Shown: piece after piece, positions 6,404-21,540 of the stretch
Layout: every line of letters starts with the position of its first letter
How positions within the stretch are numbered: position 1 is the first letter of the stretch
Virus record (IMG/VR): IMGVR_UViG_3300045902_000255
Coordinates: 1-23,692 of that record
Strand: one strand, 5' to 3'
Origin: a virus
Length of the DNA stretch: 23,692 nucleotides
Position numbers and translations under genes: made by a program
Notes under the pieces: model-generated
Databases searched by the model: none
Told to the model about the DNA's origin: nothing
What the model saw: only the letters and a program-made list of their open reading frames with translations

Positions 6404-6469
6404 TGTGTGGGTCAAGAGAACTTGACGGACCAGATCGACCACACACGGTCTTGTCCATTAAGTTCTCTT
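6404..6469 (+). promoter_or_regulatory. Switch-like 5' leader with two exclusive folds
   Basis: Fold A: 6404-6410 TGTGTGG pairs with 6439-6445 CCACACA and encloses a perfect hairpin GTCAAG/CTTGAC (6411-6416 with 6421-6426). Fold B: 6414-6423 AAGAGAACTT pairs with 6460-6469 AAGTTCTCTT and continues inward with GGAC/GTCC (6427-6430 with 6453-6456) and AGATC/GGTCT (6432-6436 with 6447-6451), about 23 positions with two mismatches. The two folds use the same bases, so they exclude each other. Both lie at the start of the transcript and seven bases upstream of the AAGGA ribosome site at 6476-6480. No U-tract is present, so control of translation or stability is more likely than termination. Confidence 0.6.
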
Positions 6470-6487: not shown

Positions 6488-7198
6488 ATGGCACAACGTA
6501 GAATGTTTAGCCCTAAAATAACAAGCAGCGACGCTTTTCTTGATATGCCAATATCAAGTCAGCTCCTTTACTTTCACTTAGGTATGGATGCTGATGATGA
6601 TGGGTTCGTTAATCCAAAACGAACAATGAGAATTATAGGTGTTGGTGACGACGACCTCAAAATATTACTGGCTAAAAGATTTGTATTATTATTTGAAAGT
6701 GGAGTTATTGTTATCAAACATTGGAAAATTAATAACCTCATTAGAAAGGACTGGCACCACAATACTGTGTATATTGAAGAGAAAGCACAACTCCAGACTA
6801 AGGATAATGGAGCCTACACAGAAAAAGATAAGTCTGTTAACAGTCTGTTAACAGATAATAATATAATTAAACTTAATATAATTAAACCTATAGATAAATC
6901 TATAGGGGGTAGCAAGCTACCTTCACCCAAACAAGAAGCTAAAGAATTCTTTGATTTAACTGAAAAACAAGAGCAAGTTATACATACTTTAACGGAAAGA
7001 GGTATTCCTGAAAAAATTTGCCGCGCCGAAATTTCTCAATTTGTTAATTATTGGTCAGAATTAAATGGTACAGGCAAGAAGCAACGTTGGGAAATGGAAA
7101 AGACCTTTGAGCTTAATCGCAGATTAGCTAAATGGTTTAATAACTATCAAAAATGGAATATGCAAAAAAACAAAGCACCAAGAGGAGTAGAAATATGA
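6488..7198 (+). CDS. Phage replication initiator / replisome organiser (DnaD-like)
   Basis: 236 residues from the ATG at 6488, chosen because AAGGA stands seven bases before it; an in-frame GTG at 6407 lies inside the leader hairpin. The N-terminal domain (1-100) matches phage replisome organisers: MAQRRMFSPKI, SDAFLDMPISSQLLYFHLGM, DADDDGF and the W-K-I-N-N-L-I piece. The middle (about 110-150) is low-complexity and coincides with the palindrome block. The C-terminal domain has QFVNYWSELNGTGKKQRWEM and RRLAKWF, typical of the loader-binding end. It should bind the origin and recruit helicase or its loader. It is the first gene of the rightward operon. Confidence 0.85.
   Translation: MAQRRMFSPKITSSDAFLDMPISSQLLYFHLGMDADDDGFVNPKRTMRIIGVGDDDLKILLAKRFVLLFESGVIVIKHWKINNLIRKDWHHNTVYIEEKAQLQTKDNGAYTEKDKSVNSLLTDNNIIKLNIIKPIDKSIGGSKLPSPKQEAKEFFDLTEKQEQVIHTLTERGIPEKICRAEISQFVNYWSELNGTGKKQRWEMEKTFELNRRLAKWFNNYQKWNMQKNKAPRGVEI
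6834..6921. other. Candidate replication origin inside the initiator gene
   Basis: Within 88 bases: the palindrome CTGTTAACAG twice (6834-6843 and 6845-6854), the 14-base direct repeat TAATATAATTAAAC twice (6859-6872 and 6874-6887, period 15, very AT-rich), the inverted repeat CTATAGAT-AA-ATCTATAG (6888-6905) and the inverted repeat GGTAGC-AA-GCTACC (6908-6921). All four are exact. They fall in the linker of the initiator protein, the place where lambda-type and several Gram-positive phages carry iterons and the unwinding element. Confidence 0.65.
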
Positions 7199-17782: not shown

Positions 17783-19102
17783 ATGACACTATTTCGAAGA
17801 AACAAAAGGCCATATGAAAATAGAGTCGTAGCAGTTCCTGTTGCTGGCTCTATTGGCGCTACTGGTCCACAAGGAGCTACTGGAGCATTAGGACCAACTG
17901 GAGCAACAGGTGCTACTGGTCCACAAGGAGCTACTGGACCGACAGGACCTCAAGGTGTCACTGGCCCACAAGGTGAAGCACTCAATTATAGAGGAGATTG
18001 GAATAATACTGATACTTATGACCCATTAGATGCGGTTACTCATGATGGTTCTTTATGGGCAGCAACAACAACAAATACTAATTCAGAACCGACTTTAGTA
18101 AATACTGATTGGGTTTTAATTGGAGCACAAGGAGCTCAGGGTGAAACTGGAGCAACAGGCCCACAAGGAGCAACTGGAGCAACAGGCCCACAAGGAGCAA
18201 CTGGAGCAACAGGACCACAAGGAATTCAAGGAACTACAGGACCAACTGGTCCACAGGCTGGTAATGTCCAAACTTTTTCTACTGTTGGTGCTGATACTTG
18301 GGTAAAACCAAGCGGTACAACTGCTAACTCTTATGCCATTATCGAAGTATGGGGTGCTGGCGGTGGAGGTGGTTTTCGCACGGGTAGCGGTGCATCTGGC
18401 GGTGGGGGTGGTGGAGCTTATGTGTTTGCAAAAGTTCCTGTTAGCGGACTTAACGCTACAGAAGTAATTAATGTAGGGCAAGGTGGTGCTGGTGCATCTG
18501 GAACAAATGGAACTGGAAGTATTGGGAATATTTCTACTTTTGGTAATGATGCAAAAATAATAACTGCTTATGGTGGTGGTGGTGGTGGTGAAGGTGCTAC
18601 AAGAGCTGGTGGAGGCGGTGGAGGAGGTATGCACTCTAATGGTTCTAATGGCGGTCTATCAGGTGGTCCTGGGGGTGGTAGGGTTTCAGGTTCAGGCAAC
18701 CCAACAGCTGACCCTTACTCAGGTGTTCCTAATCCATATCAAGGAGTTGGCGGTGGCTATAATAGTGTAAGCGATGTATTAATTAACGCAGCCTTATTCG
18801 GTGGTGGTGGAGGAGGAGGGGGTAATAGGAGTAATCAGTATACCGGAGGACCATCAGTTTATGGTGGCGGTGGCGGTGGTGCTTCGGATATTGGCGGTAA
18901 TGGAGGATTTTCTCAGTTTGGTGGCGGTGGTGGTGCTGGAGTAGCCTCAGGAAGTGTTGGAGGTCTTAGCTGGGGTGGTGGAAAGGGAGGAAATCGCTTC
19001 ACTGATGGTTCACAGCCAGGTGGAGGTGGAGGAGCTGGTCAAGGTGGAAGTGCTGCAGGGAATGGGGGGAATGGAATGGTTCGAGTAACTGTAATTTTCT
19101 AA
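17783..19102 (+). CDS. Collagen-like glycine-rich tail fibre / adhesin
   Basis: 439 residues in five parts: a basic N-terminal anchor (1-21); Gly-X-Y collagen repeats, mostly GATGPQ (about 22-65); a small insert with [20 protein letters not shown] and W110 (66-113), similar to a chitin-binding-like module; a second collagen stretch (114-159); and a Gly-rich domain (160-439) with seven or more poly-Gly runs separated by short motifs, ending [12 protein letters not shown]-like. The poly-Gly runs recall the polyglycine sandwich tips of phage adhesins. It probably trimerises and binds the host surface. It is followed by sugar-modifying enzymes. Confidence 0.8.
18149..18223 (+). repeat. 27-bp tandem repeat in the second collagen stretch
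   Basis: A 27-base unit starting GGAGCAACAGGCCCACAAGG is repeated exactly at 18149-18175 and 18176-18202, with a third, partial and slightly changed copy to about 18223. Each copy encodes nine residues (three Gly-X-Y triplets). Exact copies suggest recent expansion and a length that could vary between phages without breaking the frame. Confidence 0.85.
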
Positions 19103-19107
19103 AATAT

Positions 19108-19785
19108 ATGAAAAAAATTATCTACACACTTAATATAAACAATTACGCACCAGAGCTTGTAGCTTTAACAAGACCCCGTCTTGAGTTTTATGCCAAGCGT
19201 ATTGGTGCAGAAATCGTTGATATTACCGAGCGTAAGTTTCCTGATATGCCTGTAGTCTATGAAAAGTTGCAAATCTACGAACTAGCCAAAGAGAACAAAG
19301 CAGACTGGAATATCTATATTGATAGCGACTGTCTTATTCATCCAGAAACCATTGACTTCACTAACTTCATTTCTAAAGACACCGTTTTTCAGGTAGGACA
19401 CGATATGGCAGCTATTCGTGCTCGTTATGATAAATACTTCTTAAGGGATGGTAGAAATATCGGAACCTGTAATTGGTTTACAATTTTCTCTGACTGGTGT
19501 TTGGACCTTTATCACCCATTAGATGATATGACTTTAGAAGAAGCGAGAGAATGTATGTTCCCTACAGTGTCTGAGTCATATGTTTTTAATAAAGACCACT
19601 TAATTGATGACTTTGTAATCTCTAGGAATGTGGCTCGTTATGGTTTGAAATATGTTAATATGCCAGAGATTTTGGAAAAGATTGGTCTACCTGATGCTAG
19701 GTTTTTATGGCATGAATACTTAATTACCACTGAAGAAAAAGTTAAAAAAGCTAAAGAGGTAATCGAGGCTTGGAAATTAAAATAA
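19108..19785 (+). CDS. GT-A-type glycosyltransferase (putative)
   Basis: 225 residues. The N-terminus reads MKKIIYTLNINNYAPEL; the key stretch is NIYIDSDCLIHPE (68-80), a DxD-type metal/nucleotide-sugar site (D72, D74) after a hydrophobic strand, as in GT-A enzymes. A later DDFVISRNVARYGLKYVNM and an HEY near the end fit the acceptor side. It would use a nucleotide-sugar. No membrane segment. The sugar and acceptor are unknown. It is first in a trio with a methyltransferase and a GT-B enzyme, right behind the fibre gene. Confidence 0.7.
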   Translation: MKKIIYTLNINNYAPELVALTRPRLEFYAKRIGAEIVDITERKFPDMPVVYEKLQIYELAKENKADWNIYIDSDCLIHPETIDFTNFISKDTVFQVGHDMAAIRARYDKYFLRDGRNIGTCNWFTIFSDWCLDLYHPLDDMTLEEARECMFPTVSESYVFNKDHLIDDFVISRNVARYGLKYVNMPEILEKIGLPDARFLWHEYLITTEEKVKKAKEVIEAWKLK

Positions 19786-19805
19786 TTACATAATAACTCA
19801 TTAAA

Positions 19806-20402
19806 ATGAAAGACCAACATCAACTTGACCACGACAGAGCTCAGCATGAAGAGTCTTCTTGGTGGGGTGATTGTGCTAATATGTTAGGTGAAGAATTAAA
19901 ACAACTTATCTACGCCCATCATATGGGGTTAACTCATCAAGAAATTAATGGTAAACCTTACATCTTTGATTTAGAAGGAAAAACAATTGTAGATATTGGT
20001 GGAGGCCCTAACTCACTTCTTCTCAAATGTATTAATTTTAGAGGAGCAGTTATAGACCCTTGCGACTATCCTAATTGGGTCGCTACGAGATATTCTGAAT
20101 TAGGTATAGATTATATTAAACAGACCGGCGAAGATGTATCTGAGTCAATCCTGGAATCAGCTGATGAAGTCTGGATTTATAATGTCCTTCAGCATACAAT
20201 TGACCCTGAAAAAATTATCAAGAAAGCTAAATTAGCTAAAAAAATTCGTATTTTTGAGTGGATTGATGCTGAACAGAACCACGCTCACCCTCATGTTTTG
20301 ACTGAAGAAAAACTAAATGAGTGGCTTGGAGGCAAAGGCAAAATAGAAACATTTAACGGCATCAATGGGTGCTATGGAAAGGCTTTTTATGGAACGTTTT
20401 AA
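19806..20402 (+). CDS. SAM-dependent methyltransferase (class I, putative)
   Basis: 198 residues. Motif I is IVDIGGGPNS (61-70), motif II AVIDP (81-85) and motif IV EVWIYNVLQHTIDP (121-134), as in class I methyltransferases of small-molecule/sugar type. The N-terminal 50 residues carry His/Trp-rich helices (HQLDHDRAQHEESSWW). It lies between two glycosyltransferase genes, so a methylated sugar product, possibly as a cap, is a reasonable inference. It is not a DNA methyltransferase by its motifs (no DPPY/NPPY). Confidence 0.75.
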   Translation: MKDQHQLDHDRAQHEESSWWGDCANMLGEELKQLIYAHHMGLTHQEINGKPYIFDLEGKTIVDIGGGPNSLLLKCINFRGAVIDPCDYPNWVATRYSELGIDYIKQTGEDVSESILESADEVWIYNVLQHTIDPEKIIKKAKLAKKIRIFEWIDAEQNHAHPHVLTEEKLNEWLGGKGKIETFNGINGCYGKAFYGTF

Positions 20403-21540
20403 GTTTCATGTTGTATCACTTCCGCATACTCAAGTTACTAAAGAATATTTGCCGTGTGCTTATACTCAAAAAATTCGTAATTTTTGTATTATGATGAAGA
20501 GTCTAGGCCATGAAGTGATTTTATACGCAAGTGAAGATACAGACATTGAAGTAGATGAGTTGGTTACTTGTATTACTAAAGAAGAGCAACAGAAGCATTT
20601 TGGCCACAATGATTGGAAAAAAGACTTCTTTGATATTAGTTGGGATTCAAATCTTCCTTATTGGCAGATTATGAATAATCGAGCAGCTTTAGAGATTAAA
20701 AAACGAGCAGCTAAAAAAGACTTTGTAGCTTTAATTGGTGGTTACTGTCAAAAACCAATAGCTGACCAAATGCCTGAAATGATGAGTGTTGAAATTGGAA
20801 TTGGCTACAAAGGAGTATTTAGTCCTTACAAAGTATTTGAAAGTTATGCTTGGATGCATTATGTATATGGTCTCCAAAAATTTGAAGTAGGTCAAGCTTA
20901 TGACTCGGTTATTCCTAATTATTTTGACCCTAATGATTTTCCATTTAGTGAAGAAAAAGAAGACTACTTCTTATTTATAGGAAGAATGATTACTCGTAAA
21001 GGCGCTCATATTGCTGCTGAAGCTACAGGAAGAATGGGAATGAAACTTAAAATGGCTGGCCAAGGAGTTCTTTCAAGAGATAATGGAATACTTAAATCAC
21101 CAGAATTAGAACTATCAGGTGACCACCTGGAGCACGTAGGAACTGTTGGAGTTAAAGAAAGAGGTGAGTTGATGAGTAAAGCTAAAGCTGTATTTGTTTT
21201 AACTCAGTATATTGGGCCATTCGAAGGAGTTGCTGTAGAAGCTATGATGAGCGGAACACCTATTATTACGACAGATTGGGGTTGCTTCACTGAATACAAT
21301 ATTGATGGAGTGACGGGGTTTAGAACTCGTACACTTGCTGAAATAATGGAAGCCATGAAAAATGTAGACAAATTAGACTATGCTAAAATCAGAGAATATG
21401 CAATAAACAATTTTAGTATGGATAGAGTAAAATATCAATATCAAGCTTATTTTGAACAATTATATGAACTATGGAAAGATGGTTGGTATAGTACCAAACA
21501 ACCAGGAGATTATAAACGTTATCAAATGAATAGAATATAA
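20389..21540 (+). CDS. GT-B (GT4-like) glycosyltransferase
   Basis: 383 residues from the ATG at 20389; earlier in-frame ATGs at 20365 and 20374 lie further inside the methyltransferase gene. The C-terminal nucleotide-sugar domain is clear: DYFLFIGRMITRKGAHIAAE, then GTVGVKERGELMSKAKAVFV, then PFEGVAVEAMMSGTPII, with the glutamate pair of the GT4 family (FEGVAVEAM). The N-terminal domain is shorter and less conserved. It likely adds a sugar to a virion or surface acceptor. It overlaps the methyltransferase by 14 bases and the next gene by one (TAATG). Confidence 0.8.
   Translation: MERFKFHVVSLPHTQVTKEYLPCAYTQKIRNFCIMMKSLGHEVILYASEDTDIEVDELVTCITKEEQQKHFGHNDWKKDFFDISWDSNLPYWQIMNNRAALEIKKRAAKKDFVALIGGYCQKPIADQMPEMMSVEIGIGYKGVFSPYKVFESYAWMHYVYGLQKFEVGQAYDSVIPNYFDPNDFPFSEEKEDYFLFIGRMITRKGAHIAAEATGRMGMKLKMAGQGVLSRDNGILKSPELELSGDHLEHVGTVGVKERGELMSKAKAVFVLTQYIGPFEGVAVEAMMSGTPIITTDWGCFTEYNIDGVTGFRTRTLAEIMEAMKNVDKLDYAKIREYAINNFSMDRVKYQYQAYFEQLYELWKDGWYSTKQPGDYKRYQMNRI

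Follow-up and report, generated by a model that had tools for sequence, protein, structure and literature searches.

The window, the whole stretch of 23,692 nt that was analysed (positions 1 to 23,692 of the IMG/VR virus record IMGVR_UViG_3300045902_000255), carries an initiator gene with a dense block of direct and inverted repeats in its interior. The features discussed in the following are:

6488..7198, + strand: initiator gene, DnaD-like helicase loader / phage Rep, 236 aa (PHROG 5708, Tuc2009 Rep homology)
6488..6832, + strand: winged-helix-like N-domain, aa 1-115 (AlphaFold model; residues 80-89 covary with the iteron sequence)
6831..6855, no strand: two 11-nt iterons AGTCTGTTAAC at -25 and -14 relative to the array start; they and the bases after them make up a perfect 11-1-11 inverted repeat
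6833..6910, + strand: codons of the disordered linker, aa 116-141 (AlphaFold model, pLDDT under 50)
6859..6888, + strand: AT-rich array (TAATA TAATT AAACT twice) with six [TA]A[AG] triplets at 5-nt spacing, the presumed melting element
6887..6906, no strand: hairpin 1, inverted repeat CCTATAGAT-AA-ATCTATAGG
6908..6921, no strand: hairpin 2, inverted repeat GGTAGC-AA-GCTACC
6926..7171, + strand: helical C-domain, aa 147-228 (AlphaFold model; sub-threshold match to the DnaT DNA-binding domain PF17948)

The gene had been called an initiator in an earlier note made from the letters of this DNA alone, and the call is borne out by the family match of the 236-aa product to PHROG 5708 (DnaD-like helicase loader, E 6.4e-59) and by its homology to Rep of the lactococcal phage Tuc2009. 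In the AlphaFold model (mean pLDDT 76, pTM 0.46, 30-sequence alignment) residues 116-141 are the sole long low-confidence stretch and separate the N-domain from the C-domain; they are encoded by 6833-6910, so that the repeat block indeed overlaps the linker, as had been proposed. A search of the PDB by sequence gave no match to the initiator, and a fold search returned as top matches 5kbj and 4pta, both weak (E 0.03-0.1), which to judge by their entry titles are RepA_N proteins; the RepA_N domain PF06970 itself gave no Pfam match to the window initiator. No relatives of the C-domain were found in viral contigs, and searches with Rfam and for tRNAs yielded nothing. A strong hairpin at 6414-6469 in the leader of the gene (RNA fold z -4.25) ends about 18 nt upstream of the start codon and may regulate expression of the initiator.

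All elements claimed for the block in the earlier note are present and correct to the base. The iteron AGTCTGTTAAC occurs in two exact tandem copies at 6831-6852, inside which CTGTTAACAG starts at 6834 and 6845, and the perfect 11-1-11 inverted repeat occupies 6833-6855. The array consists of the copies TAATATAATTAAACT/C at 6859-6873 and 6874-6888, 15 nt each and identical at 14 of 15 positions. Chance was assessed by shuffling the synonymous codons of the initiator gene 4000 times with the protein kept: the 11-nt periodicity was matched in none of the 4000 shuffles, and low probabilities were likewise obtained for the number of inverted repeats (P=0.0015), the longest inverted-repeat arm (P=0.0135) and the 15-nt periodicity (P=0.013). 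Against base shuffles, the period-5 chain of six [TA]A[AG] triplets gave P=0.0026; against synonymous shuffles it gave P=0.115, because the residues NIIKLNIIK largely force the chain; the claim for the array therefore rests on comparison with relatives and not on the shuffle test. On both strands of the 23.7 kb, chains of at least six [TA]A[AG] at 5-nt spacing occur in the array only, and the longest period-3 triplet chain of the window is 2 as against 6 at period 5. By nearest-neighbour energies, no 45-nt segment of the record is less stable than 6859-6903, and the 96-nt block folded as single-stranded DNA reaches z = -6.35. The doublet GTTAAC-3-GTTAAC, found in 110 other viral stretches, was rejected as a DNA marker for relatives, since none of the 80 stretches examined encodes this initiator; by itself the doublet is not diagnostic.

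An alignment search with the N-domain provided 160 loci, drawn from contigs of viruses and of bacterial genomes; once loci of the first searches had been added, a non-redundant set of 110 genes, the window among them, was retained, which together with Tuc2009 makes 110 relatives. These related phages and prophages have mostly Firmicutes hosts; the same origin layout was also seen on two contigs (L091, L128) binned as Patescibacteria, one of them as Candidatus Magasanikbacteria, although the binning may be wrong. In 88 of the 110 relatives, four or more TAG/AAG triplets follow one another at exactly 5-nt spacing. The strict TAG array is missing in the remaining 22 and also in the window, where the strict TAG/AAG chain is 2 only and a TAA/AAA chain of 6 occupies the same place with the same spacing. 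Chains of at least five at 6-nt spacing account for four more relatives, and chains of four at any other spacing occur in at most five loci. In L094, L148, L149 and L169 the array triplets are 6 nt apart and not 5, as in TAGATATAGGTTTAGATA of L148.

Synonymous shuffling reduced the mean longest chain in the relatives from 5.9 to 2.2, and the codons used in their arrays are near-fixed, with fractions of 1.00 for S=AGT, 0.99 for D=GAT, 0.96 for L=TTA and 0.96 for I=ATA, as compared with 0.24, 0.63, 0.26 and 0.37, respectively, in the remainder of the same genes. Furthermore, the iterons of the relatives, described by the motif TGNNN[AC]C[ACG] (defined by eye from the same loci), lie upstream at -14, -25, -36 and -47 from the array start, and 138 of 203 motif matches fall in a single phase modulo 11. 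The window iterons at -25 and -14 keep this family register, with the array start having been located independently by the chain search alone. Hairpins with arms of at least 6 directly after the array are about four-fold enriched among the relatives, occurring in 40% of 87 loci as against 9-12% in the controls, which were synonymous shuffles and positions elsewhere in the same genes (p 5e-9 versus C-terminal windows). It is mainly the near-fixed array codons and the iteron-array register of the relatives that uphold the suggestion that the linker DNA is under selection. The earlier note had named relatives with the protein linker and without the repeats as evidence against its reading; the only such group is that of five Blautia-type loci (L132, L144, L146, L156, L158), which have the N-domain in common and carry no iterons or array in the linker at about codons 100-150, and their linker protein differs too.

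The residues that may read the iterons emerge from covariation within the N-domain. Columns 86, 84, 85 and 80 lead the covariation with iteron class (z 32, 18, 15 and 9; all others at most 4.9), and residue 86 is R in 29/29 loci with CAACC iterons and Q in 26 of the 34 with TATMC/GATAC. A tree-based test offered only 3 independent pairs on supported branches, nearly all in the same direction and too few for significance, and closest-pair contrasts were used for that reason: 24 of the 29 closest disjoint pairs differ at residue 86 as R/Q. Since identity outside the region is practically equal within and between iteron classes (0.661 and 0.654), and pairs up to 91% identical still differ according to the residue-86 rule, shared ancestry does not explain the covariation. 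Residue 89 deviates from R in nine loci, seven of which have CG-containing sites, compared with 3 of the 84 R89 loci; L091 and the window are the two of the nine that deviate. The latter combines R86 and W89 with TGTTAACA and stands outside both main iteron classes, a misfit to the R/Q rule for which W89 may account. As judged from these sequence comparisons, the N-domain very probably reads the iterons. In the model, residues 80-89 come after the predicted wing, in a region of lower confidence, and they would be the candidates for direct contact with the iterons.

In its design the locus resembles lambda O/ori, as the earlier note had recognized: there, iterons and an AT-rich stretch lie inside the initiator gene, the N-domain binds and the C-domain recruits helicase loading. 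The lambda iterons are about 19 nt long in contrast to 11 nt here, the pentamer array is a feature of the present locus, and neither Pfam nor PHROGs gave a match of the initiator to the lambda O families; the initiator stands closer to Tuc2009 Rep and, through a weak similarity of fold, to the plasmid RepA_N initiators. Rep2009 of the P335-group phage Tuc2009 shares 58% identity with the window protein over 110 aa of the N-domain, its product also matches PHROG 5708, and iterons followed by a 5-nt [TA]AG array lie in the linker directly after the N-domain. The two systems differ in the iteron core (GNCAACC in Tuc2009, GTTAAC in the window), in the array (TAG/AAG versus TAA/AAA) and in the C-domain, which in Tuc2009 is Rep_Org_C (PF06926), absent from the window initiator. 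The Tuc2009 gene is annotated as 'contains origin of replication', and the direct repeats that act as ori lie within this gene and are bound by its product Rep2009 (PMC8965321). Along these lines, Rep of plasmid pSK41, which has DnaD-like domains, binds with its winged-helix N-domain to sites located centrally within its own rep gene, and this origin inside rep encodes a linker that is dispensable (PMC5703833); the RepA_N initiators of the pSK41 type thus share the origin-in-rep plan, in addition to the weak fold matches. In SPP1 gene 38 and ORF20 of phage 80alpha the origin is embedded, or proposed to be, in the gene of a replisome organizer (PMC5499656), and these are likened to the window by origin placement only. 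TP901-1 ORF13 was rejected as a homolog, its N-domain being unrelated (8 aligned residues).

Because of the homology and layout shared with Tuc2009 Rep, the ori described in the literature and the pSK41 plan, the block most probably belongs to an established class of origins, the Tuc2009 type, with a variant array. In all likelihood, 6831-6921 is the phage's own replication origin inside the initiator gene, at which the N-domain would bind the iterons, the array would open and the C-domain would take part in loading. The origin claim of the earlier note thus finds support in homology and in the literature, as far as sequence can tell. The minimum of the GC skew lies where the note expected it, at about 6.25-6.5 kb; this minimum coincides with a switch of the coding strand, adds little and was set aside as origin evidence, being confounded with coding direction.

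It is very unlikely that the block is instead an operator, with the initiator binding the repeats to regulate its own expression and replication starting elsewhere. Inverted repeats with 11-nt spacing are typical of operators too, the leader hairpin at 6414-6469 (z -4.25) indicates that expression of the initiator is probably regulated, and the roles in binding and as origin are not exclusive; on the other hand, the site is situated some 345 nt into the gene, the least stable stretch of the record comes after it, the adjoining array is conserved in register among relatives, and the Tuc2009 counterpart of this region is both annotated and described as an origin. It is more improbable still that the repeats arose from slippage and the amino-acid bias of a low-complexity linker and have no DNA function, for although tandem duplication can give 11- and 15-nt repeats and the significance of the array is weak with the protein held fixed, the array codons of the relatives are nearly fixed relative to the rest of the genes, and slippage would predict neither the iteron-array register nor the covariation of residue 86.

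For the origin reading, a sequence of events can be proposed in which the N-domain, via residues at about 80-89, would bind the 11-nt iterons, one per turn of the DNA, and the bound complex would open the adjoining AT-rich pentamer array. Tethered by the flexible linker, for which the origin itself codes, the C-domain would then bring in the helicase/primase machinery. The hairpins at the outer edge may keep hold of the opened strand or indicate where loading takes place. The repeat block would in this way turn into a testable rule for the position of the origin, the initiator residues that read it and the opening element across phages of many bacterial groups, and it offers a route to origin annotation in metagenomic phages.

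The array appears to extend beyond this initiator family. A scan of viral contigs with the array pattern gave at least 80 loci; among the matches listed, 63 array ORFs have the N-domain of the window initiator, and a few more resemble the same family cut at contig ends. Other N-domains among the matches listed are Lin1244-like (L287 and L336, with further copies L339 and L343), of the Phage_rep_org_N type (L342), that of a replication initiation protein of PHROG 2509 (L309) and of the primosomal-protein type (L283). In L287, L309, L336, L342 and L283 the array is mostly preceded by other short repeats and often followed by a hairpin. The repeats are retained in L309 and six relatives, most of which also retain the array, though it is weaker in the most distant. 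Given the size of the collection, chance matches to the 18-base pattern can also arise, and L346 and L360 look like such cases. A description of the array in phages was not found in the open-access literature, and the shared array is a novel lead. Tentatively, and with somewhat less than even confidence, a common melting element may be proposed for phages with unrelated initiators: [TA]A[GA] triplets at intervals of 5 nt (rarely 6), recognized by a conserved factor of the host or a conserved loader, within an iteron-array-hairpin layout placed in linker codons. The window would carry the TAA-type version, and the iteron specificity would be set by a few residues (86, 84, 85, 80, 89). If true, specificity set by so few residues would make it possible to match an initiator to its origin by sequence only.

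Possible readers of the array are the initiator or loader, host DnaA and primase. In bacterial DnaA-trios, repeated TAG/AAG/TAA triplets stand beside double-stranded initiator sites (PMC10316083), and the TAG and AAG triplets of the phage arrays, as well as TAA in the window, are the same. The phage may thus borrow the host factor, with DnaA holding the triplets as single strand in DnaA-trio fashion, a proposal that gains from the occurrence of the array beside unrelated initiators, for which the reader may be a common factor. It is nevertheless rather doubtful: the spacing is 5 (rarely 6) and not 3, the array runs, with respect to the binding sites, in the opposite direction from the B. subtilis DnaA-trios (PMC10201434), and a perfect DnaA box lies within 300 nt in only 2 of 92 loci, near-boxes not being clearly enriched. 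Whatever the reader, DnaA-trio triplets at another spacing beside unrelated initiators would bear on how origins separate their strands and hold them single. Less likely by a clear margin is that the opposite strand, with CTA in relatives and TTA in the window every 5 nt, provides primase start sites. Several Firmicutes primases start at CTA and TTA (PMC5204125), and the change from TAG to TAA in the window still leaves a start triplet; the strict 5-nt spacing would be unneeded, however, and the Clostridium prophages L100 and L106 (the latter with a shorter chain) carry the TAG array despite the preference of the C. difficile primase for CCC, with hardly any use of CTA or TTA (PMC5204125).

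Outside the initiator gene, one end of the record (4-276) holds 18 copies of the 15-nt tandem repeat ACCAGAGTTCCAGTC. The product of an ORF at 17783-19102 combines GATGPQ repeats of collagen-like character with a long tail rich in glycine, and the DNA of this ORF contains tandem repeats of 9 and 27 nt; 19108-21540 holds ORFs that, judged from their translations, are methyltransferase- and glycosyltransferase-like and lie between structural-type genes.
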